DNA of 64,000 nt from a virus, in the IMG/VR virus record IMGVR_UViG_3300035183_001163, positions 1-64,000 of that record. One strand, 5' to 3'. The translations under genes and the position numbers were made by a program. Position 1 is the first letter of the stretch. Each line of letters opens with the position of its first letter. The notes beneath the pieces were generated by a model that saw only the letters and a list, made by a program, of their open reading frames with translations, had not been told where the DNA came from and did not search any database. Of this stretch, positions 2 to 32,942 are shown in pieces.

Positions 2-325
2 GGCGCGCTCAAGAAGGCCGAGCGGCGCGCGAAGCTGGAGGGGCTCTCGCTGTACGTGAACTTCGTCGCCTCCGCCGACGTGCTCTCCGACGCGCGCTCC
101 CTGCTCGACGAAGCGCGCGAGCGCGGCACCGTCGTCGGCGGCGAAGCGAACCCGGACGCCGGAGAGGCCGAGGCCGCCGCGCGTTCGGCCGCGTACGGCG
201 CCCGCAAGGCGGAGACGCTCGACGAGGCGCTCCACGCGTTCGTCGGCCAGATGGCGCTCGACGAGGACCTGGACCGGAAGGACGTGGAGAGCCGCGCGCG
301 CGGCTATCTCGGAGGTGGACGATGA
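2..325 (+). CDS. C-terminal part of an unidentified protein (5' end outside window)
   Basis: An open frame enters from the left edge and ends at TGA 323-325, giving the last 107 codons. A GTG at 56 is in frame, but the frame is open and codon use looks coding right to base 2, so this is read as a truncated gene. The visible part is charged, Ala/Glu/Arg-rich and probably helical. I do not recognise it. It overlaps the next gene by 4 bases (ATGA), so it belongs to the same transcription unit as the nucleotide-metabolism genes. Confidence 0.6.
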   Translation, partial: GALKKAERRAKLEGLSLYVNFVASADVLSDARSLLDEARERGTVVGGEANPDAGEAEAAARSAAYGARKAETLDEALHAFVGQMALDEDLDRKDVESRARGYLGGGR

Positions 326-972
326 CGCTGGCTCTCATCACGGTGAACGCTTCGGAGCACGCAGCCCTCATCGCGGAGCGAGACGCGCTCCGCGTCCAGG
401 TCACCGAGCTGCAAGCGGCGATGACGAAGATGGCCGACCGGACGCTGGCGCGGCGCGTGCGCGCGTTCCACCAGAAGTTCGGCCACCCCGTCCGCTGGAC
501 GCCGACGGTCCCGCCGGACGCCGAGGTGCGTTTCCGCCTGGCGCTCATCCTGGAGGAATTCGAGGAGCTGCTCCTCTCGACGCTCGCGGACCCCGAGGAC
601 CACGAGTGGGGAGACTTCGACGGCATCCACGAGGCTGTCGAGGCGGCGACGGCGGAGCTGCGCGAGCTGATTCGGCTGGCGCCGGTCGGCGTCGACCTTC
701 CCGAGGCGTACGACGCTCTCCTGGACCTCGGCTGGGTCGTCGAGGGAACGCACGCCGTCATCGGCACGAACGCTGACCCCGGCTTCGAGGAGGTGGGGCG
801 CGCGAACATGGACAAGGACCCGGTGTACGTCGCGCTCAAGGACGGCTTCCACGGCTCGAATGTCGAGGAGTGGAGCGAGCGCCCCGACCCGACGCAGAAG
901 CCGAGGAAGCCGCCGGGCTGGCGCGGCCCCGACATCGTCGGGGTGCTCCGCGCCCAGGGGTGGCGGCCGTGA
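322..972 (+). CDS. MazG/PRA-PH-like nucleotide pyrophosphohydrolase
   Basis: 216 residues. After a short N-terminal coiled coil, the segment RVRAFHQKFGHPV (about residues 50-62), the acidic helix RLALILEEFEELL (about 73-85) and DALLDLGWVVEGTHAVIG (about 132-149) match the all-alpha NTP pyrophosphohydrolase fold. The acidic E-E-F-E-E cluster and the later Asp are expected to bind the metals. The C-terminal KPPGWRGPDI is typical of the phage 'Cof-like' branch of this family. Such enzymes hydrolyse (d)NTPs to (d)NMP plus pyrophosphate and may shape the nucleotide pool for a modified genome. Its position beside dihydrofolate reductase (GTGA overlap) supports that role. The exact substrate is unknown. 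Confidence 0.7.
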   Translation: MTLALITVNASEHAALIAERDALRVQVTELQAAMTKMADRTLARRVRAFHQKFGHPVRWTPTVPPDAEVRFRLALILEEFEELLLSTLADPEDHEWGDFDGIHEAVEAATAELRELIRLAPVGVDLPEAYDALLDLGWVVEGTHAVIGTNADPGFEEVGRANMDKDPVYVALKDGFHGSNVEEWSERPDPTQKPRKPPGWRGPDIVGVLRAQGWRP

Positions 973-1475
973 CGGTCCACCTCATCGCGGCCGTCGCTGA
1001 GGACGGCACTATCGGGCTCGACGGAGGCATCCCGTGGAACATCCGCGCGGACCTGCGGCGCTTCCGCGAGCTGACGATGGGGCACGCGGTCGTCATGGGC
1101 CGCGCGACGTTCGCGTCCCTCCGCAAGCCCCTCGTTGGCCGCACCAACCTCGTCGTGACGCGCGAGCCGCGCTCCCTGGTCGACGCCGGCGTGGCGGCTT
1201 TCTCGACGCCCGACCGCGCGCTCGACTTCGCGCTCCGCGTCGACCACGAGCCGTTCGTCATCGGCGGCGCGGCCATCTACAACGCGCTGCTCGCGCGCGT
1301 GGACGTGATGCACCTCACCGAGGTCGGGCTGTCGTTCCCGGAGCCGGCCGCCGTCCGCTGCTCGTTTCCCACGGGCTCGTCGTGGGAGGAGGTCTTCCGT
1401 TCCGAGCAGATGGAGGAGAACGGCGTGCGCTTCCAGTACGTGACGCGGAAGCGCCGCGGAGAGCCGCCGCGGTGA
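969..1475 (+). CDS. folA: Dihydrofolate reductase
   Basis: 168 residues, the normal length of a bacterial DHFR. It opens with HLIAAVAEDGTIGLDGGIPW, followed by IRADLRRFRELTMGHAVVMGR, the GR(A)TF NADPH-binding turn and PFVIGGAAIYN, the conserved GG before the nicotinamide site. It reduces dihydrofolate to tetrahydrofolate with NADPH. Start GTG 969 overlaps the previous stop (GTGA) and places the first strand correctly; a longer frame beginning at 870 would add non-homologous sequence. No thymidylate synthase is visible in the window; folE, 3.4 kb downstream, draws on related pterin chemistry. Confidence 0.95.
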   Translation: MTVHLIAAVAEDGTIGLDGGIPWNIRADLRRFRELTMGHAVVMGRATFASLRKPLVGRTNLVVTREPRSLVDAGVAAFSTPDRALDFALRVDHEPFVIGGAAIYNALLARVDVMHLTEVGLSFPEPAAVRCSFPTGSSWEEVFRSEQMEENGVRFQYVTRKRRGEPPR

Positions 1476-1504
1476 ACGTGGCCGCGCTTAGGGAAGAGAA
1501 GACC

Positions 1505-2710
1505 ATGAAGGTCATTCTCGTGACGAGCTTCGAGGACTACTTCCTCGAACAGGACACCCTCCCCGCCCTCGCCGCTCGCGGCGTCGAGGTCGTCGTCCGC
1601 TTCGAGGCGCGGAACGTCGAAAACTACGACCTCGCGAAGTACAAGCGCGAGGGCGTGGAGATGATTCTCCATATGCACGAGGTCGGCCCGCACGCCGCGA
1701 GCTGGCGACTGACGGAGCGCGCGAAGGAGGCCGGGCTGCCCGTTCGCGCGCTGAGTCGGAAGAAGGCGAGCTGGACCTTCCTCCCTGCTCCGGCGACGCC
1801 CGACCCGCCCGCGCCGCCGTCCATCCCGGAGTCGGAGCGCGTGCTGAGACCCCGGAGCCGCGGCCACGACGGCGTCACGACCACGACGATGATGCTGGCC
1901 AACGGCGCGGCGTCCGAGGAGGAGAAGGAGCGGCCGTTCCCTGCCGGCGGCGCGATGCTCCACCCCGGTCTCCATCCGAAGGATGACGCGGCCATCCCCG
2001 ACCGCGTGCGCGACTTCATCACCGTCACGCGCTTCGACCGCAAGAGCGCGCGGCTGAGAGACGTCATCCGGCTCGTCATCGCGCACAACGTCACCGACTA
2101 CAAGAGCGTCCTCGAAGCCGTCACGCAGGGGCGCTCGCGCGGCGTCTTCCCATGTCTGCTCCGGCTCAAGCCCGAGCAGCTTCCGAAGCTCACCAAGAGC
2201 ATGCTCGCGCACGAGCTGAACGAGATGCGCGGCAAGGCGCACGCGGTGACGCTCTTCCACGAGGACCGCGCGCAGCTCGCGAGCCTCGGCCTGACCGCGC
2301 CGGAGGCCGGGTACACGGTCGACACCGAGGCGGCGCTGGCTGCGCTCAAGGACGACGACGAGCCCGCGGGGCCGGACAGCTTCGGCGGGAGTGACTTCCC
2401 GCCCATCGAAGAGGAGAAGACGGACATGAGCGCTTGGGAAGGCAGCGAGATGCAACGGCAGGCGGAGATGGAGCGCGAGCGCGCGGCGGCGAAAGCGAAG
2501 CAGGACGGGCTCCCCGCCGCGCTCTCCGCGCCGCTCCCGCGGCGCGCCCCCGACCCCGGCCCGGTCGCCGACGAGCTGACGCGGCTCCGCGCTCGCGTCG
2601 CGGAGCTGGAGAAGTTGGAGAAGGCGCACGCCGCGCTCAAGACGCTCGTGGGCCTCGGCGTCATGACCGCCCAGGAAGCGGCGGAAAAACTGTTCGGAGG
2701 CGCATCGTGA
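1505..2710 (+). CDS. Unknown protein with DUF2325-like N-terminus and C-terminal coiled coil
   Basis: 401 residues from ATG 1505, which follows a purine-rich GGGAAGAGAAG; GTG 1472 in the same frame (GTGA overlap with DHFR) is an alternative start. The N-terminus (MKVILVTSFEDYF) and about residues 50-90 (ILHMHEVGPHAASWRLTERA...GLPVRALS) resemble the small Rossmann-like DUF2325 pattern in which a conserved His follows a hydrophobic strand. The middle is polar and proline-rich, and the last 80 residues form a likely coiled coil. It directly precedes and overlaps the SbcC-like gene, so it may be a partner of that ATPase; this is inference. Confidence 0.55.
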   Translation: MKVILVTSFEDYFLEQDTLPALAARGVEVVVRFEARNVENYDLAKYKREGVEMILHMHEVGPHAASWRLTERAKEAGLPVRALSRKKASWTFLPAPATPDPPAPPSIPESERVLRPRSRGHDGVTTTTMMLANGAASEEEKERPFPAGGAMLHPGLHPKDDAAIPDRVRDFITVTRFDRKSARLRDVIRLVIAHNVTDYKSVLEAVTQGRSRGVFPCLLRLKPEQLPKLTKSMLAHELNEMRGKAHAVTLFHEDRAQLASLGLTAPEAGYTVDTEAALAALKDDDEPAGPDSFGGSDFPPIEEEKTDMSAWEGSEMQRQAEMERERAAAKAKQDGLPAALSAPLPRRAPDPGPVADELTRLRARVAELEKLEKAHAALKTLVGLGVMTAQEAAEKLFGGAS

Positions 2711-4482
2711 ACGTCGCGCAGCTCCGGCTCTCCGGCTTCATGAGCCACGCGGGGAGCGTCATCGACTTCCCCCGCCGCGGCGTCGTCGTCGTGACCGGCC
2801 CGAACGGAGCCGGCAAGAGCAGCATCCCCGAAGGCGTGTCCGTCGCCGGCTGGGGGCGAACGCTCCGCGGCACGAACCCGTGGAAGGGGGACGCGGGGGA
2901 GGCGCTGCTCGTGGACGCCAGCGGCCTCGTCGCCCGCCGCACGCACAAGAAGGGCAAGAAGGACCTCGACTGGTCGCTGCCGAACGCGGACCCGGTCCAG
3001 TACGAGACGACGACGAAGGCGCAGATGGCGCTGGAGGCGGTCATCGGCTCGTGGGACGTCTGGCGGCGCGCCGCCGTGTTCTCGTCGTCCGATGCGAGCC
3101 ACTTCACGCTCGCCACCGACGCGGAGCGCAAGCGGCTCCTGGAGGGCATCCTCGGGCTGGAGCGCTTCGACGTCGCGAGCGACCGCGCTCGCGGGGACAT
3201 GGCCATCGCCAACGTGACGGTGGCGCGGCTGACGCGAGAGGTGGCGGTGCTCGTGGAGCGGCTCGACGGCGCGCGCGCTCGTGTGCTCGACGCGGAGCGC
3301 GTCCTCGCGGAGCACGACGCGGAGGCGAGCGGCGACCCCGCCGCGCTCGCCGCCGACGAGCAGCGCATCCGCGCCGATATCGCGAAGCAGGAGGCGGAGT
3401 CGAAGCGCATCCAGGGGCTCCTCGCCGGCGTCCGCTCCGACCTCGCCGAAGCGGAGCGCGCGATGAGGGCCGCCCAGCGCGACGCTTCCAACGCGGAGCG
3501 AAGCGCGGCGCTGGCGCGTTCCGACGCGAAGCGCGCCGCGGAGTTGCTCACCGCGCTCAAAGACGAAGCGTGCCCGACGTGCGAGCAGCCCGTGGGAGCC
3601 GCCCAGCGCGCGCGGCTCCAGAAGGAGGCTGCGGCGAAGGAAGCGGCCGCCGAGGCTGCGGCGAAGGACGCCGAGGCGGCGAAGGCGCGCGCTGACGAGG
3701 AAGCCGCCGCGGCGTCGAGCACGCTGGAGGAGCTGGGGGAGGAGCGCGACGCCCTCACCGCGTCGTCGGCGAAGGTCGGGGAGCTGCTCGCGAAGCTTCG
3801 CGGGGAGCTGTCGCACACGACGGCGAACCTGGAGCGCGCGAAGAGCGCTGCGGCCCAGCGTGAGCGGCTCCGTGCGGCGCTCGCCGATGCGAAGGCGAAG
3901 CTGGTCGAGGTCGAGACGGCGCACGCGGACGCCGACGAGAAGCTCAAGGCCGCGGACAAGGAACACCGGACGCTGGAGGCCGTCGTCCGCGTGCTCGGGA
4001 CGAAGGGCGTGCGCGCCCACGTGCTCGGCTCCGCGCTCGCCGGCCTGGAGTACGTCGCCAACGCGTGGCTCGCGCGGCTCGGCACCGGCGTCGCCCTCAC
4101 CGTCTCCGCGTACACGGAGAAGAAAACCGGCGGGCAGAGCGACGCCATCTCCCTGAACCTCGTCGGCTCCGGTGGCGCGTACGGCGGAGGCGAAGGCTAC
4201 GCGGCCGCGAGCGGCGGAGAACGCCGGCGCGTCGACGTCGCGCTCCTTCTCGCGCTCGGGGAGGTCGCCGCCGCGGCCCACGGCGCGGAGCCGGGGACGC
4301 TCTTCATGGACGAGGTCTTCGACTCGCTCGACAAGGACGGCATCGAGCGGTGCTGCGCCGCGCTCGCGGAGCTGGGGCAGTCGCGGTGCGTCGTCGTCAT
4401 CACGCACAACGAGGACCTCGTGGCGGGGCTCCGCGCCGACCGTCACCTCATCGTCGAGGCCGGGAGCGTCCGCGCCGCATGA
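2707..4482 (+). CDS. SbcC/Rad50-like SMC-family ATPase
   Basis: 591 residues. Walker A GPNGAGKSS lies at about 31-39, a long coiled coil follows, and a zinc-hook CPTC motif sits near 289. The signature AASGGERRR is near 498-506 and Walker B LFMDEVFDSLD near 532. This is the order of Rad50/SbcC ATPases, here compact like phage gp46 proteins (bacterial SbcC is about 1,000 residues). Such proteins work with an SbcD/gp47 nuclease in end processing and recombination; the nuclease partner is not in view and may lie to the left. GTG 2707 overlaps the upstream stop by 4 bases. Confidence 0.88.
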   Translation: MNVAQLRLSGFMSHAGSVIDFPRRGVVVVTGPNGAGKSSIPEGVSVAGWGRTLRGTNPWKGDAGEALLVDASGLVARRTHKKGKKDLDWSLPNADPVQYETTTKAQMALEAVIGSWDVWRRAAVFSSSDASHFTLATDAERKRLLEGILGLERFDVASDRARGDMAIANVTVARLTREVAVLVERLDGARARVLDAERVLAEHDAEASGDPAALAADEQRIRADIAKQEAESKRIQGLLAGVRSDLAEAERAMRAAQRDASNAERSAALARSDAKRAAELLTALKDEACPTCEQPVGAAQRARLQKEAAAKEAAAEAAAKDAEAAKARADEEAAAASSTLEELGEERDALTASSAKVGELLAKLRGELSHTTANLERAKSAAAQRERLRAALADAKAKLVEVETAHADADEKLKAADKEHRTLEAVVRVLGTKGVRAHVLGSALAGLEYVANAWLARLGTGVALTVSAYTEKKTGGQSDAISLNLVGSGGAYGGGEGYAAASGGERRRVDVALLLALGEVAAAAHGAEPGTLFMDEVFDSLDKDGIERCCAALAELGQSRCVVVITHNEDLVAGLRADRHLIVEAGSVRAA

Positions 4483-4874: not shown

Positions 4875-4903
4875 TTGTAAGGCTTCGTACACTCGCGTAG
4901 TGT
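4875..4903 (+). promoter_or_regulatory. Putative promoter for folE / deazaguanine operon
   Basis: TTGTAA (4875-4880), a 17-base spacer and TAGTGT (4898-4903) sit in the 45-base gap before folE. The -35 resembles the TTGCAA of the repeated class A promoters and the -10 fits TANNNT. The start codon follows 10 bases after the -10, so a very short leader is predicted. Confidence 0.5.
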
Positions 4904-4913
4904 CCAAGCCACC

Positions 4914-5477
4914 ATGTCTCGCGAGAAGACTGCCGGGCTGGCCGCCGCCTGGCGCACCGTCATCCGCGGCCTCGGCTACGACCCGCAGGACGCCCACCTC
5001 GTCGACTCTCCGTCCCGCGTGGCTCGGTTCATGACCGAGTGGCACACGATGGGCAAGAGCCCACCGAAGCTCACCACGTTCCCGAACAAGCCCAGGTGCG
5101 ACGAGCTGGTGGTGGTCAGCGGCATCCGCTTCCACTCGCTCTGCGCCCACCACGGGCTCCCGTTCGTCGGGACGGCGGCCATCGGCTACGTCCCCGGCGA
5201 CAAGGTCCTCGGGCTGTCGAAGTTCGCCCGGGTCGTCGACCACTACGCCAACCGCTTCCAGGTGCAGGAGAAGCTCACGACGGAGGTGGCCGACTACCTC
5301 TCCGGCGTCCTCCAGCCCGTCGCGCTCGGGGTCGTGCTCCGCGCCGAACACTTCTGCATGTCGATGCGCGGCGTCAAGAAGGGCGGCCACGCGACCACGA
5401 CCAGCGCCATGCGCGGCGACTTCCGCGACGAAGCCGCGGCGCGCGCGGAGCTGCTCGCCCTCATCCGGGAGAAGTGA
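4914..5477 (+). CDS. folE: GTP cyclohydrolase I
   Basis: 187 residues. The Zn ligands are visible: LCAHHG (Cys77, His80) and HFCMSMRGV (Cys148). The active-site segment GLSKFARVVDHYANRFQVQE and the tail KKGGHATTTSAMRG are standard for type IA enzymes. It converts GTP to dihydroneopterin triphosphate, the entry step of both folate and 7-deazaguanine synthesis. With queD, queE and queC downstream, its likely job here is supplying preQ0 for DNA modification. Confidence 0.96.
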   Translation: MSREKTAGLAAAWRTVIRGLGYDPQDAHLVDSPSRVARFMTEWHTMGKSPPKLTTFPNKPRCDELVVVSGIRFHSLCAHHGLPFVGTAAIGYVPGDKVLGLSKFARVVDHYANRFQVQEKLTTEVADYLSGVLQPVALGVVLRAEHFCMSMRGVKKGGHATTTSAMRGDFRDEAAARAELLALIREK

Positions 5478-5479
5478 CG

Positions 5480-6298
5480 ATGGCTGCCAAGAAGAAAGCA
5501 CCGGCCCCGACGACCGCGGCCGACCCGAACGACATCGCGAAGTGGGTGCCCGAGAGCGAGCTGGAGTTGTGGGAGGCGAACCCGCGCGACAACGACGCCG
5601 CCGTCCCGAAGGTCGCCGACTCCATCCGCCGCTACGGTTTCGTGGCCCCGGTGGTCGTCTGGACCTCGCGGCGTCAGCTCGTCGCCGGGCACACGCGTCT
5701 CAAGGCGCTCCGCGCCATCCTCGCCGCTGACGCGACGTTCGTGGCGAAGGGCGCGCCGGGGCCGGGCATGGTCCCCGTTCGCTTCCACGAATTCGAGAGC
5801 GAGGCGGAGGCGAGCGCGTACGCCATCGCGGACAACCGCCTCGGCTACGAGGCTGACTGGGATTACGAGAAGCTGGTCCCGCTCCTGGAGAGCATCAAGA
5901 CGGACGACGCCGCGCTCCTCTCCGTCACCGGCTTCCACGACGACGAGCTGAACGCGCTCATGCGCTCCGTCTACAGCGCGGAGTCGGCGAGCATCCCGCC
6001 GACGAACGCGGACGCCGAAGCCGCCGGCGAGGAGACGAAGCCGCACGCGTCGAAGCCCAAGGACGCGAAGGGCGGGACGCTGGAGCTGAGCGCGGGTGAG
6101 TGGGCCGTCCTCCGCAAGGTCGTGCTCGCGCGCACCGGCATGGTCTCCGACGACGCGAAGGCGCTCCGGGACGGTCTCATCGTGCTCCTCAACGAGCTGG
6201 CCGCGGAGGTCGACCTCGACGCCGCCGACGCGTCCTCCGACGCGGCGGAGAAGCGCGCCGCGCACGCCTCGCTGCTCCCCGCCGGCTCGGAGGCGTGA
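5480..6298 (+). CDS. ParB/sulfiredoxin-like domain protein, possible DpdB-like partner
   Basis: 272 residues. A Lys/Ala/Pro tail leads into a ParB N-terminal domain: ELELWEANPRDNDAAVPKVA, IRRYGFVAPVVVW, the hallmark LVAGHTRLKA and later ASAYAIADNRLG. The C-terminal third is acidic with no HTH that I can recognise, so it is not a classical partition ParB. It lies between folE and the first dpdA-like gene. From memory, bacterial deazaguanine-modification clusters carry a ParB-superfamily DpdB, so a role assisting transglycosylation is plausible. Start ATG 5480 follows the folE stop by 2 bases. Confidence 0.75.
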   Translation: MAAKKKAPAPTTAADPNDIAKWVPESELELWEANPRDNDAAVPKVADSIRRYGFVAPVVVWTSRRQLVAGHTRLKALRAILAADATFVAKGAPGPGMVPVRFHEFESEAEASAYAIADNRLGYEADWDYEKLVPLLESIKTDDAALLSVTGFHDDELNALMRSVYSAESASIPPTNADAEAAGEETKPHASKPKDAKGGTLELSAGEWAVLRKVVLARTGMVSDDAKALRDGLIVLLNELAAEVDLDAADASSDAAEKRAAHASLLPAGSEA

Positions 6299-6302
6299 CG
6301 CC

Positions 6303-7055
6303 GTGACCGTCGTACGCATGGCGGTGAACAACGCGATGGAGATGCTCACCCGTACGTTCTGCGGGCCGGAGTCTCCCGCGCTGCTCGTCTCCTACGTCAT
6401 CATCGATGACGTGCTGAAGGAGATGCCCAACCTCGTCTTCCGGGACTGGGTGCTCGACTCCGGCGCGTACAGCGCGTTCACGCTCGGCAAGGAGATTCGC
6501 CTCCAGGATTACATCGACTTCTGCAAGCGGATGCGCGGCATCGACCGGCCGCCCACCGAGGTCTTCGCGCTCGACGTCATCGGGGACTGGAAGGGCTCGC
6601 TCAAGAACACCGAGGAGATGTGGCGGCAGGGCGTCGAGGCGGTGCCCTGCTACCACGAGGGCGAGCCGTGGCACGTCCTCCAGACGATGGCGCGGGAGTA
6701 CCCGAAGATTGCGCTGGGTGGGATGGTCGGTGCCCCCGGCAACCGAAAGCTGAAGTGGGTGAAGGAGTGCTTCGCGCGCGTCTGGCCGAAGCGCATCCAC
6801 GGCTTCGGCGTCTTCAACCAGCAGATTCTCCACGCCGTGCCTTTCGAGAGCGTCGACAGCGCCAACTGGGCGTACCCCATGATTGGGGGCAACTGGATTG
6901 GCATCGGCCACGGGAAGTGGGTCGTCCTCCGCACGCGCAAGACGTACGACCTCCGCGCGGAGGTCCGCTACTACATGAAGCTGGAGCGCAAGCTCAAGTT
7001 CCTCTGGCGTCGCGAGCTGGCCGCCATCGGCTCTCCGGGGGTGAGCGCGGCGTGA
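6303..7055 (+). CDS. dpdA: DpdA-like DNA transglycosylase (first copy)
   Basis: 250 residues from GTG 6303 (ATG 6318 also possible). RDWVLDSGAYSAF recalls the DSGGFQ substrate pocket of tRNA-guanine transglycosylases. EVFALDVIGDW, VPCYHEGEPWHV, IALGGMVG and KRIHGFGVF line up as successive barrel strands. Phage TGT-like proteins of this size beside queC/D/E are DpdA enzymes, which exchange guanine in DNA for preQ0. It is about 35-45% alike by eye to the next gene, with the same motifs in order. It overlaps that gene by 4 bases. Confidence 0.8.
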   Translation: MTVVRMAVNNAMEMLTRTFCGPESPALLVSYVIIDDVLKEMPNLVFRDWVLDSGAYSAFTLGKEIRLQDYIDFCKRMRGIDRPPTEVFALDVIGDWKGSLKNTEEMWRQGVEAVPCYHEGEPWHVLQTMAREYPKIALGGMVGAPGNRKLKWVKECFARVWPKRIHGFGVFNQQILHAVPFESVDSANWAYPMIGGNWIGIGHGKWVVLRTRKTYDLRAEVRYYMKLERKLKFLWRRELAAIGSPGVSAA

Positions 7056-7813
7056 CGACCATCCGCCTCGCGCTCTTCGCCGGCGACTCCGTCGTGAAGG
7101 CGACGTTCGGCAACCCCGAGCTGCGGCCGGGGCTGCTCGTTTCGTACATGGTGCTCCGGCAATTCGAGCGCCTGGAAGCGTCGCTCTCGTACGAGGACTG
7201 GGTGCTCGACTCGGGCGCCTTCTCGGCGCACACGAAGGGTCGCGTCATCGAGCTGGATGAGTTCATCGCGACCGCGAAGCGGCTCCGCGCGCTCCCTGGC
7301 TCGCGGCTCTCCGAGGTCTTCGCGCTCGACGTCATCAACAACTGGCGCGCCTCGCACGCGAACACGAAGCGAATGTGGGCCGCCGGCGTCGACGCCATCC
7401 CCTGCTACCACCAGGGCGAGCCGTGGAACGTGCTCGTGGGGCTCGCTCGCGACTACCCCAAGATTGCCATCGGTGGGATGGTCGGCGTCAACCGTCGCGC
7501 GAAGCTCGCGTGGGTGAAGGCGTGCTTCGACAAGGTCTGGCCCAAGAAGATTCACGGCTTCGGCGTCTCCGACCTCGCCATCCTCCGCGCCGTGCCCTTC
7601 CACACCGTCGACGCGACCAACTGGGGGTACGCTCCGGCGGCGACCGGCGCGTGGCGCGGGCTCCAGCCGCCGACGCACGAAGGGCCGCGCCCCGTCGGCG
7701 CGCGCGCCCTGACCAACTTCCAGGCTGAGGTCCGCTTCTACCTCCGCGCGCAGAAGGAGATGCGCTTCCTCTGGCGCCGTGAACTCGCATCGTTGGAGGC
7801 CGCGCATGTGTAG
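7052..7813 (+). CDS. dpdA: DpdA-like DNA transglycosylase (second copy)
   Basis: 253 residues, a tandem paralogue of the upstream gene. It conserves EDWVLDSGAFSAHTKG, EVFALDVINNW, IPCYHQGEPWNV, IAIGGMVG and KKIHGFGVSDLA. It differs by a roughly 20-residue insertion around APAATGAWRGLQPPTHEGPR and a shorter N-terminus. All recognisable pocket motifs are intact in both copies, so neither looks decayed. Start GTG 7052 overlaps the previous stop. The two may form a heterodimer or act in different sequence contexts; both options are inference. Confidence 0.8.
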   Translation: MTTIRLALFAGDSVVKATFGNPELRPGLLVSYMVLRQFERLEASLSYEDWVLDSGAFSAHTKGRVIELDEFIATAKRLRALPGSRLSEVFALDVINNWRASHANTKRMWAAGVDAIPCYHQGEPWNVLVGLARDYPKIAIGGMVGVNRRAKLAWVKACFDKVWPKKIHGFGVSDLAILRAVPFHTVDATNWGYAPAATGAWRGLQPPTHEGPRPVGARALTNFQAEVRFYLRAQKEMRFLWRRELASLEAAHV

Positions 7814-9026
7814 CATCTTCGGGGCGCTGGGATACGTGGACGACGACGTCCTGGAGCGGCTGCGCCAGAAGGCGGGCGACCGGGGCCGCGATGGCGGACG
7901 CGTCGAGCGCTACGTCCTCGCCGGCGGGCTCCACGCCGCCCTCGGCAACTGGCGCGCGACGCCAACGCCGGAGGTCGAGCGCGCCCCGCTCCAGCCCTAT
8001 GACGGCGTCGTCCACAACGGCACCATCGCCAACGACAAGGAGCTGGGCGCGCTGCCCGGCGAGGTCGACTCGATGGTCCTGCCGCGCGTGCTGGACCGCT
8101 CGTCGCTCGCGGCCTTCGCGGTGTCGCTCTCGCGCGTCGTCGGCTCGTACGCGCTCGCGGTGAAGACCGAGGACAGCATCTTCCTCGCCTGCAACTACAA
8201 GCCGCTGTACTACTGGGCGAGCGTCGACGGCACCGCCTACTTCTCCTCGATGGAGCGCCACTTCGATGGGCTGCTCCCGTTCGGCGTCCGGCCCGCGAAG
8301 CTCCCGCCGTACAGCGCGATGGACCTCAAGACGGGCGAGCGCATCGAGCTGCCGCGGAAGGACGCGCGCCGCGCGCTCGTCATCGCGAGCGCCGGCCTCG
8401 ACTCCACCGCCGTCGCCGCGCGCCTCGTCCGCGAGGGCTATGACGTCCGGCTCCTCCACTTCCAGTACGGCTGCCGCGCGCAGACCCGCGAGAGCGAGCG
8501 CATCCCGCGCATCGCGCACGCCCTTGGCGCCTCGCACGTCGTGCTCACGCTCCCGATGCCGTGGACGGCGTCGTCCACGCTGCTCCGCGAGGACGCGACG
8601 CTCGCCGGCGCCACCGAGGGCGCCGAATACGCCCACGAGTGGGTGCCCGCGCGCAATCTCGTCATGCTCGCGTACGCGACCGCTTACGCGGAGGCGTTCG
8701 GCTTCCACGTGCTCGCGCTCGGGAACAACCTGGAGGAGAGCGGCGCCTACCCCGACAACGAGGAGGAGTTCACGCACCTCTTCGACGGCCTGCTCCCCTA
8801 CGCGACGCAGAACGGCTACCGCGTCCGCGTCGTCTCGCCCGTCGGCCACCTCATGAAGCATGAGATTGTGGCGATGGGTCTCGCCGACGGCGCGCCCTTC
8901 GCGGAGACGTGGTCCTGCTACCGCGGCGGCGCGCGTCATTGCGGCGAGTGCGGCCCGTGCTTCATGCGCCGCGAAGCCTTCCGGCGCAACGGCGCCATCG
9001 ACCCCGTCTTCACGGAGGGAGCATGA
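7806..9026 (+). CDS. queC: Glutamine amidotransferase-QueC fusion (Gat-QueC)
   Basis: 406 residues. The protein begins MCSIFGALG, so Cys2 is the catalytic nucleophile of a class II (Ntn) amidotransferase domain covering roughly 1-185, with VVHNGTIAN typical of that fold. A QueC domain follows: PP-loop SAGLDST at about 195-201 and the zinc cluster Cys371, Cys379, Cys382, Cys385. QueC converts carboxydeazaguanine to preQ0 using ATP and ammonia. In archaea and some phages the Gat-QueC fusion is linked to turning the nitrile into the formamidine of archaeosine. An archaeosine-like base in this phage's DNA is therefore predicted. Confidence 0.92.
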   Translation: MCSIFGALGYVDDDVLERLRQKAGDRGRDGGRVERYVLAGGLHAALGNWRATPTPEVERAPLQPYDGVVHNGTIANDKELGALPGEVDSMVLPRVLDRSSLAAFAVSLSRVVGSYALAVKTEDSIFLACNYKPLYYWASVDGTAYFSSMERHFDGLLPFGVRPAKLPPYSAMDLKTGERIELPRKDARRALVIASAGLDSTAVAARLVREGYDVRLLHFQYGCRAQTRESERIPRIAHALGASHVVLTLPMPWTASSTLLREDATLAGATEGAEYAHEWVPARNLVMLAYATAYAEAFGFHVLALGNNLEESGAYPDNEEEFTHLFDGLLPYATQNGYRVRVVSPVGHLMKHEIVAMGLADGAPFAETWSCYRGGARHCGECGPCFMRREAFRRNGAIDPVFTEGA

Positions 9027-9445
9027 ACCTCGTCACCTGTACGCGTCGCCTCGAAGCCGATACCGGCCACCGCCTCCTCAAGCACGAGGGGAAGTGCCGC
9101 AACTACCACGGGCACCGCTACGTGTTCGAGGTCACCGTCCAGGCTCCGGAGCTGGACGAGGTCGGCCGCGTGGTCGACTTCTCGTTCATCAAGGACAAGG
9201 TGGGCGCCTGGGTGGACGAGCACCTCGACCACGGCATGGTCCTCCAGGACGGAGACCCGCTCATCGCGCCGCTCGTCGCCCAAGGCTGCAAAGTACATGT
9301 GGTGAGCTTCTCGCCGACGAGCGAGAACCTCGCGCGCTACGTCTACGGCGTGGCGGTGTCGATGCTCCCCGCGCCGCTCCGCGTCACGCGCGTCCGGTGC
9401 TGGGAGACGCCCAACTGTTTCTCTGACTACGAGGTCGACCGATGA
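9023..9445 (+). CDS. queD: 6-carboxytetrahydropterin synthase
   Basis: 140 residues. Zinc-binding histidines are at His16 (TGHRLL), His29 and His31 (NYHGHRY), with the catalytic Cys25 in KCRNYHGH. DFSFIKDKV and LDHG in mid-protein and the late ENLARYVYG and VRCWET are all family hallmarks. It converts dihydroneopterin triphosphate to 6-carboxy-5,6,7,8-tetrahydropterin. Start ATG 9023 overlaps the queC stop. Confidence 0.95.
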   Translation: MNLVTCTRRLEADTGHRLLKHEGKCRNYHGHRYVFEVTVQAPELDEVGRVVDFSFIKDKVGAWVDEHLDHGMVLQDGDPLIAPLVAQGCKVHVVSFSPTSENLARYVYGVAVSMLPAPLRVTRVRCWETPNCFSDYEVDR

Positions 9446-10191
9446 CCGAGCGATACGGCGTGAAAGAGGTCTTCGACACGCTCCAGGGCGAGGGAAGCCG
9501 CGCCGGTGCGCGCTCCGTCTTCGTCCGCTTCTCGGGGTGCAACCTCTGGACGGGGTCGCCGCTCCACCGCGACGCGGGCAAGGGCGCGTGCGCGGCGTGG
9601 TGCGACACCGACTTCTTCAAGGGGGTGCCGCTCGACCTCATCGCGCTGCTCGCGATGATGGACAACGCGTGGCCGACCACCGCTGGAGCGGAGCGCTGGT
9701 GCGTGCTCTCCGGCGGAGAGCCCATGCTTCAGGTCAACGCCGCGCTCACCGACGCGCTCCACGCCGAGGGCTGGAAGATTGCGGTGGAGACGAACGGGAC
9801 GGTGGACTCGAAGGTCTGGGACCGCCTCGACCACGTCGCGTGCTCGCCCAAGGGCAACACCGCCCTCGTCGTCCCCGCGAGCCGCGTCGATGAGCTGAAG
9901 GTCGTGCTCCCCGGCTCGGGGCTGAACTTCGACGGCTGGAAGGACGACGACCTCGACGCGATGGCGGAGCACTACGCGCGTGCCGCGTTGTTCGTCCAGC
10001 CGCAGGACGTCCTTCCCGACCCGTCCATCGTCGGCACGTCGCTCCTCAAGGACGGCGTGGAGGACGAAGAAACCAACCAGCTCGCGAACATGGCCTTCCA
10101 ACAGAACCTCAACGGCGCCATCGCGTTCATCCGCCGGCGTCCGCGCTGGCGGCTGTCGCTGCAAACCCACAAGCTCATCGGGCTCCCGTAG
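9442..10191 (+). CDS. queE: 7-carboxy-7-deazaguanine synthase (radical SAM)
   Basis: 249 residues. EVFDTLQGEGSRAGARSVFVR at the N-terminus, the cluster cysteines Cys33 (GCNLW), Cys50 and Cys54 (CAAWCDTD), then LSGGEPMLQ and VETNGTV define QueE. The cluster loop is of the long GCNLW type, with 16 and 3 residues between the cysteines rather than the 14 and 2 I expect for this type, so cluster spacing is slightly unusual. It rearranges carboxytetrahydropterin to carboxydeazaguanine, the QueC substrate. Start overlaps the queD stop; this completes the pathway in one operon. Confidence 0.94.
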   Translation: MTERYGVKEVFDTLQGEGSRAGARSVFVRFSGCNLWTGSPLHRDAGKGACAAWCDTDFFKGVPLDLIALLAMMDNAWPTTAGAERWCVLSGGEPMLQVNAALTDALHAEGWKIAVETNGTVDSKVWDRLDHVACSPKGNTALVVPASRVDELKVVLPGSGLNFDGWKDDDLDAMAEHYARAALFVQPQDVLPDPSIVGTSLLKDGVEDEETNQLANMAFQQNLNGAIAFIRRRPRWRLSLQTHKLIGLP

Positions 10192-14007: not shown

Positions 14008-14456
14008 TGGCGAACGCGCGCTGGCGGCGGGAGTCGATGTCGTGGGAGCCGTGGAGCGCCCGGCACCTCCACTGGGCGCGCGCTATCGCGCGAGACGCCG
14101 GGCTCCCGGAGGACGCGTTCACCTCGTTCGTCCGCGCGCTCCCCGGCTCGCGGATGGGCCGCGAGAGCGTCCCCGAGCGCAACCTGTTCGCGCCGCTCTG
14201 GCTCCACGCGTTCTGGGACGTCGCGACGGAGGAACACTTCGACCGCGACGAAGCCGGACACGTTCGGAAGGTACCCATCACGACGAACATCGCTGACCGC
14301 GTCTTCGCGAAGCTGCTCGTGGAGCGGAAAGAGCTGCGGCGCGCGCTGGAGGTCGTCTACGACGAGACGCGCGACCCGAATCGTACAGCCGACTTCGTTG
14401 TAGCTGTTGCGTTGGGAGAATTGAAAGAGCAGGATGGGCGCTCTCCGGAGGGATGA
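14007..14456 (+). CDS. Unknown protein
   Basis: 149 residues. A Trp-rich N-terminus (SWEPWSARHLHWARAIARD) is followed by FTSFVRALPGSRMGRESVPERN and a charged C-terminal helix. It lies immediately upstream of the SAM decarboxylase gene and is probably co-transcribed with it. Not recognised. Confidence 0.6.
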   Translation: MANARWRRESMSWEPWSARHLHWARAIARDAGLPEDAFTSFVRALPGSRMGRESVPERNLFAPLWLHAFWDVATEEHFDRDEAGHVRKVPITTNIADRVFAKLLVERKELRRALEVVYDETRDPNRTADFVVAVALGELKEQDGRSPEG

Positions 14457-14457
14457 G

Positions 14458-14850
14458 ATGGGACACGGTCGGCACGTGAAGGTGGTGGGCTACGGAGCGG
14501 TCACGCTCGTCGGCGCGGTCGTCGTCGTGCGCGACTTCCTCAAGGAGCTGGTCTCGACGCTCGGGATGCGCGCCCTGGGAGAGCCCGTCATGCACGATGT
14601 CGAGCTGGACCTCTCCAAGCTCAACGTGGAGCCGTTCGAGGACGAGGGCGGCGTCACCGGCGTCGCGGTGCTCTCGACGTCGCACTGCGCCATCCACACC
14701 TGGCCGGCGCGGGACGGGTTCTTCGTCCTGGACGTGTACTCGTGCCGCGACTTCGACCCTACGGCCGTCGCCGAAGCGCTCACCACGAAGCTCGGGGTGC
14801 GGAAGCTGCGGATGACGGACGTGACGAGCGCGCTGGAGCCGCCTCCCTAG
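14458..14850 (+). CDS. speD: S-adenosylmethionine decarboxylase, pyruvoyl type
   Basis: 130 residues, the size of the short prokaryotic SpeD. The cleavage/active-site segment VLSTSHCAIHTWPARDGFFV (about 71-90) places the pyruvoyl-forming Ser at about 75, and Cys96 in VLDVYSCRDFDP is the catalytic cysteine. It decarboxylates SAM to the aminopropyl donor for spermidine. Start ATG 14458 follows a GGAGGG element; an in-frame ATG at 14434 is less likely. Its stop overlaps that of the convergent gene on the minus strand. The phage use may be polyamine supply for packaging; no spermidine synthase is visible. Confidence 0.9.
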   Translation: MGHGRHVKVVGYGAVTLVGAVVVVRDFLKELVSTLGMRALGEPVMHDVELDLSKLNVEPFEDEGGVTGVAVLSTSHCAIHTWPARDGFFVLDVYSCRDFDPTAVAEALTTKLGVRKLRMTDVTSALEPPP

Positions 14851-32864: not shown

Positions 32865-32942
32865 GCGCCCCTAGCTCAGTTGGCAGAGCACCCGGTGTAT
32901 GGAATCGGGAGGTCGCAGGTTCAAACCCTGCGGGGCGCGCCA
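32865..32942 (+). tRNA. tRNA gene with enlarged anticodon arm, CCA encoded
   Basis: Acceptor GCGCCCC/GGGGCGC, TA, D-arm GCTC-AGTTGGCA-GAGC, variable AGGTC, T-arm GCAGG-TTCAAAC-CCTGC, discriminator G and encoded CCA. The anticodon arm is 19 bases instead of 17: either a 6-bp stem CCCGGT/ATCGGG with loop GTATGGA, or a 5-bp stem with a 9-base loop. The first folding would give anticodon ATG, but A34 and base 73 do not fit histidine identity, so the specificity is left open. Confidence 0.7.

Follow-up and report, generated by a model that had tools for sequence, protein, structure and literature searches.

A phage operon predicted to modify DNA with a 7-deazaguanine encodes a Gat-QueC fusion and two tandem DpdA-like proteins

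The seven-gene operon described here probably makes a 7-deazaguanine, likely that of deoxyarchaeosine (dG+), which DpdA, with a ParB-domain protein, would insert into the phage's own DNA, and it encodes two diverged DpdAs. The operon lies in the window, the first 64,000 bases of a 72,636-base IMG/VR virus record. The record encodes terminase, portal, head, head-tail adaptor and tape-measure proteins and is therefore assigned to an uncultivated tailed phage. Guanine modification of own DNA is a known way to evade host defences, and the pathway, the Gat-QueC fusion and the adjacency of ParB and DpdA are also known already, the window phage being a further example. The one unusual feature of the operon, as read from sequence, is a pair of apparently intact DpdAs side by side, and a doubled DpdA is already visible in the public annotation of Microbacterium phage Megan. 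The features of the region are as follows.

4881-4910, plus strand: inverted repeat upstream of folE, with core ACACT-CGCGT-AGTGT at 4889-4903
4914-5477, plus strand: folE, GTP cyclohydrolase I, 187 aa (PF01227, 4.5e-56; phrog_2197, 5.5e-58)
5480-6298, plus strand: ParB-domain protein, 272 aa (phrog_498, 5e-30; phrog_620, 7e-29)
6303-7055, plus strand: dpdA-a, DNA guanine transglycosylase-like, 250 aa, GTG start (phrog_887, 4e-38)
7052-7813, plus strand: dpdA-b, DNA guanine transglycosylase-like, 253 aa, GTG start (phrog_887, 3e-35)
7806-9026, plus strand: gat-queC, 406 aa (PF06508, 6e-51; phrog_10428, 4e-106)
9023-9445, plus strand: queD, 6-carboxytetrahydropterin synthase, 140 aa (PF01242, 9e-30; phrog_2389, 4e-38)
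9442-10191, plus strand: queE, 7-carboxy-7-deazaguanine synthase, radical SAM, 249 aa (TIGR04508, 5e-50; phrog_2076, 4e-25)

The operon runs from 4914 to 10191 on the plus strand in the order folE, ParB-like gene, dpdA-a, dpdA-b, gat-queC, queD and queE. The original prediction had named these seven genes as a 7-deazaguanine set, and all are present with family matches far above chance. It had also described them as following one another with almost no gaps; the tight packing stands, but the wording is imprecise, since gaps of 2 and 4 bp are followed by overlaps of 4, 8, 4 and 4 bp and most junctions thus overlap. G+C at the third codon position is 0.91-0.96 in every one of the seven genes. 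The inverted repeat ahead of folE is a weak candidate for a possible operator or 5' hairpin; its RNA fold is weak (z = -1.98), and neither a second exact copy nor a second good copy occurs within the window. Directly upstream of the operon, at 322-4482 on the plus strand, are MazG-like pyrophosphohydrolase, dihydrofolate reductase (960-1475) and SbcC-like genes, and a phage S-adenosylmethionine decarboxylase (SpeD) gene is found at 14434-14850 on the plus strand (PF02675, 1e-17). A tRNA gene at 32865-32942 on the plus strand was assigned as tRNA-His (anticodon AUG, A34); its anticodon arm is odd, with either a 6-bp stem or a 9-nt loop. Bacterial tRNA-His usually has the anticodon GUG and is a natural target of queuosine modification. 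An Rfam scan at gathering thresholds returned nothing beyond this tRNA.

FolE, QueD, QueE and QueC convert GTP to preQ0 in an established pathway (PMC6884629). In the window phage, FolE would perform the first step, from GTP to 7,8-dihydroneopterin triphosphate, and QueD, QueE and the QueC half of Gat-QueC would complete the route to preQ0. The zinc-binding Cys and His positions of FolE are kept across a 45-member alignment that includes the window protein; FolE also gives a weak QueF match, which we attribute to the fold common to the FolE and QueF families. The Cys, HGH and DH residues of QueD are kept in 43-44 of the 44 aligned sequences. QueE matches TIGR04508 at 5e-50, yet this falls under the curated cut-off of that model, and its [4Fe-4S] cysteines show the unusual spacing C-x16-C-x3-C (encoded at 9535-9600, plus strand). 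The usual QueE iron-sulphur motif is CxxxCxxC or Cx14CxxC; the CxxxC end of the window motif is common to the relatives L020, L023 and L039. The zinc and PP-loop motifs originally reported for FolE, QueD, QueE and QueC were upheld, as the catalytic and metal-binding residues checked are kept, and a check of the alignments for lost catalytic residues found none at these positions. Self-synthesis of preQ0, which had also been put forward, is likewise predicted by the complete GTP-to-preQ0 enzyme set with these residues in place.

Gat-QueC comprises a class II glutamine amidotransferase domain (residues ~1-170) and a QueC domain (~188-395), and shares 41-65% identity with the Gat-QueC proteins of other phages. 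In the amidotransferase domain Cys2, Arg50, Asn71-Gly72 and Asp88 are kept across 19-22 homologues, and the QueC half keeps the SxGLDS PP-loop together with the zinc cysteines C371, C379 and C382. Pfam GATase matches to the protein were below cut-off; PDB profile matches linked the N-terminal domain to PRPP amidotransferase. An AlphaFold2 model (pLDDT 85.7) was used for the comparison with class II amidotransferase structures that the original prediction had proposed, and the best PDB match was asparagine synthetase, which combines an Ntn glutaminase with a PP-loop domain. Asparagine synthetases of human and E. coli match the model over the full length (Foldseek E ~1e-14), with low whole-chain TM-scores of 0.3-0.36 that suggest the domains are set differently; for the QueC portion, B. 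subtilis QueC (3bl5) was matched with a TMt of 0.77. The assignment of the amidotransferase domain is confirmed by the PDB profile matches and the predicted fold, and the claim of an Ntn amidotransferase with Cys2 at the QueC N-terminus agrees with both the conserved residues and the AsnB-like model. The Gat half would release ammonia from glutamine, as asparagine synthetase does, for the nitrile step, the amidine step, or both.

By analogy with published systems, the end product is most likely the archaeosine base, present in DNA as dG+, rather than dPreQ0 or dADG. Gat-QueC and DpdA of Enterobacteria phage 9g place dG+ into E. coli DNA even in a queC deletion (PMC6884629), and LC-MS detected dG+ in the DNA of phage Vid5, which has Gat-QueC (PMC8306585). 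These precedents, and the 72.6-kb record having no QueF above cut-off, no match anywhere to PF01702 (the Pfam TGT family) and no PF03883 match indicative of DpdC, lead us to expect dG+. Insertion of another 7-deazaguanine (dPreQ0, dADG or a mixture), with the Gat domain merely feeding ammonia to QueC, is in our estimation unlikely. It would fit the observations that 9g DpdA alone inserts preQ0 and that phage nt-1, which has ArcS, contains mostly dPreQ0 (PMC6884629), and that phages with ParB and DpdA often have a standalone QueC with no amidotransferase seen. However, mainly dG+ was found in the published Gat-QueC cases consulted, 9g (genes in E. coli) and Vid5 (PMC6884629, PMC8306585), and contig L021, a close DpdA relative, has an ArcS-like gene and a separate QueC where Gat-QueC would sit, as though the G+ step had been retained. 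That the operon serves to increase queuosine in host tRNA, or folate, with no DNA modification, is very improbable. FolE also serves folate synthesis, a dihydrofolate reductase gene lies upstream, and preQ0 genes occur in the absence of DpdA in some phages (PMC6884629), but two DpdAs are encoded in an operon whose parent record has neither TGT nor QueF above cut-off. With dG+ as the preferred product, DpdA would exchange guanine of already replicated DNA for the 7-deazaguanine base, and we infer that the modified base is made in vivo and protects against restriction.

DpdA-a and DpdA-b are 47% identical by BLASTP, and the GTG start of dpdA-a is matched by its L021 homologue. Neither protein was detected with Pfam and NCBIfam alone. 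Residues D52, D91, H166 and D185 (DpdA-a numbering) are near-invariant over 63 DpdA-like sequences and are kept by both window copies; in the LDVIGD motif DpdA-b has N-N in place of the G-D found in most family members. The window DpdA family profile aligned with 9g DpdA in hhalign (probability 99.8, E 2e-27, 33% identity, 171 columns), with H166 of both window proteins opposite 9g H196. Since DpdA2 of the Vibrio phage nt-1 type is without an H196 equivalent (PMC6884629), the presence of H166 in both copies identifies them as 9g-type (DpdA1), and a DpdA2 identity was rejected. Against E. coli Tgt the family profile gave nothing significant, only a 15-residue DSG match at probability 0.7, and no solved structure was matched by sequence when DpdA was searched against PDB profiles. 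The DpdA-b model is barrel-type (pLDDT 87); the PDB entries it resembles most are generic TIM barrels rather than TGT, and annotated queuine tRNA-ribosyltransferases are among its structural matches in viral models. A search of IMG/VR with DpdA-b alone returned no relatives. A pseudogene or dead paralogue was considered for DpdA-b and rejected at the sequence level, as the protein is full length with the four residues kept. The two tandem paralogues are probably both active, and diverged.

The ParB-domain protein upstream of dpdA-a matches PF02195 only weakly, below cut-off, and an IMG/VR search with it alone found no relatives. Among 46 distinct related loci, 41 have a ParB domain no more than 2.5 kb from DpdA and 2 more are truncated at contig edges; on this basis the protein is probably a working partner of DpdA. 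In a wider set of 151 distinct loci, biased because it was gathered with DpdA and Gat-QueC queries, 64 of 76 ParB matches have a DpdA domain at most 600 bp away, and the strand is the same in all 64; ParB is not universal in this biased set, being present at 44 of the 111 non-edge loci. We propose that the ParB-domain protein would assist DpdA as a partner, either DNA-targeting or driven by NTP. For the ParB gene of mycobacteriophage CRB2, a DpdB-like role had been put forward earlier (PMC6392294), and phage cytosine-modifying enzymes are also accompanied by ParB domains (PMC12783734). One account describes bacterial DpdB as a ParB-like ATPase that insertion requires, though some clusters can do without it, and the bacterial Dpd restriction-modification cluster as pairing a transglycosylase with a ParB-superfamily partner (PMC12839542), as in the window. 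A ParB-superfamily protein linked to dpdA, a DpdB trait, is thus present here, whereas the record has no DpdC, which converts dPreQ0 to dADG, no restriction genes were seen within the phage operon, and the phage operon makes its own preQ0. PADLOC gave no DpdB model match to the ParB protein, only a methyltransferase model; its library may hold no DpdB.

Phage 9g has the same enzyme set as the window (DpdA, Gat-QueC, FolE, QueD, QueE). Its Gat-QueC is 45% identical to that of the window, and its DpdA is homologous, with the same conserved residues and ~25% identity over the aligned length. It differs in having one DpdA, no adjoining ParB and another gene order, beside DNA polymerase and clamp genes. 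A 9g-type DpdA works without ParB. The cultured phage Megan has, like the window, a ParB-domain protein (gp1), two tandem DpdAs, Gat-QueC, QueD, QueE and FolE, but with folE last rather than first; Microbacterium phage Nicole72, also cultured and close to Megan, has two DpdA places. In the Megan locus (L066, 1-6307), gp1 is annotated as hypothetical and matches the ParB profile, and gp4, annotated as QueC-like, includes a Gat domain. Arthrobacter phage Sonali and mycobacteriophages Quesadilla and CRB2 resemble the window in having ParB directly upstream of DpdA and preQ0 genes, but their operons encode a single DpdA together with a standalone QueC, for which dPreQ0 would be expected. A second, very distant DpdA-like gene of Sonali (gp81; L061, 2002-2619) lies outside the preQ0 operon and has retained the D, D, H and D positions. 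The window-type DpdA is single in the uncultivated IMG/VR viral contigs L027/L028, L149 and L021; ParB is upstream in L027/L028 and L021, and Gat-QueC is found in L027/L028 and L149, whereas L021 has ArcS-like and QueC genes instead. The ArcS-like gene of L021 (7763-8695), with the motif TSCSADKPYPADVHR read by eye, adjoins the standalone QueC.

Two DpdAs were found at 7 of the 151 distinct DpdA loci sampled, a proportion that is not a population rate given the query-based sampling. These are the window, L056, Megan, L070 (near copy L071), L077, L078 (with L082) and L089, the last with one truncated copy; the full-length copies at all of them keep the four residues. On the tree, the two-DpdA label needs 9 changes, at least 4 of which are forced by well-supported branches, and by this analysis the doubled DpdA arose several times in phages, independently. 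The Megan proteins are 41% identical to each other, 22-25% identical to those of the window and placed apart from them on the tree, pointing to an independent doubling. The L082 pair groups as sisters with support of 100/100 and the Megan pair more weakly (91/62), and the tree fixes no pairing for the copies of the window, L056, L070 and L077. DpdA-b of the window falls nearer L050 and copy 2 of L056 with modest support, and an ancestral DpdA pair common to the window and L056 is suggested (82/39); a sister relationship of DpdA-a and DpdA-b was not rejected by the AU test (p 0.38-0.40). In L070/L071 and L078/L082, two DpdA and ParB units occur in one preQ0 cluster, each DpdA with its own ParB. 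Our literature search, which lacked some key Dpd papers, found no paper discussing the doubled pattern.

The leading explanations for the two diverged DpdAs are that they would act on different short sequence motifs or form an obligate heterodimer. A tentative proposal is that two co-expressed DpdAs and ParB specificity partners constitute a modular system of multi-motif base swapping, in which each DpdA or unit would act on different motifs. It is also conceivable, and we hold it just as tentatively, that the two DpdAs have no separate sequence targets and form an obligate heterodimer like eukaryotic QTRT1/QTRT2. TGT enzymes are dimers (noted in PMC6884629), dpdA-a and dpdA-b are adjacent, overlapping and 47% identical, and the window, L056 and Megan each have a single ParB for two DpdAs. 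In QTRT1/QTRT2, QTRT2 is the non-catalytic subunit; unlike it, both window DpdAs keep D52, D91, H166 and D185. The own ParB of each DpdA in L070/L071 and L078/L082 fits separate modules better, and single-DpdA relatives are common. That the second DpdA is merely redundant or drifting, with no function of its own, seems rather improbable. The rarity of doubled DpdAs among the loci sampled (7 of 151, from biased queries) and the truncated copy of L089 would agree with it, but both window copies are full length with the four near-invariant residues at 47% identity, and the independent recurrence of doubling argues for selection.

The recurrence of apparently intact doubled DpdAs in unrelated phages, the doubled DpdA and ParB units of two lineages, and the layout shared with the cultured Megan could prove important. 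Cultured phages with the doubled layout make the role of the ParB partner and the sequence specificity of guanine replacement directly testable. If the multi-motif reading is true, DpdA doubling would broaden protection, much as multiple methyltransferase specificities do.
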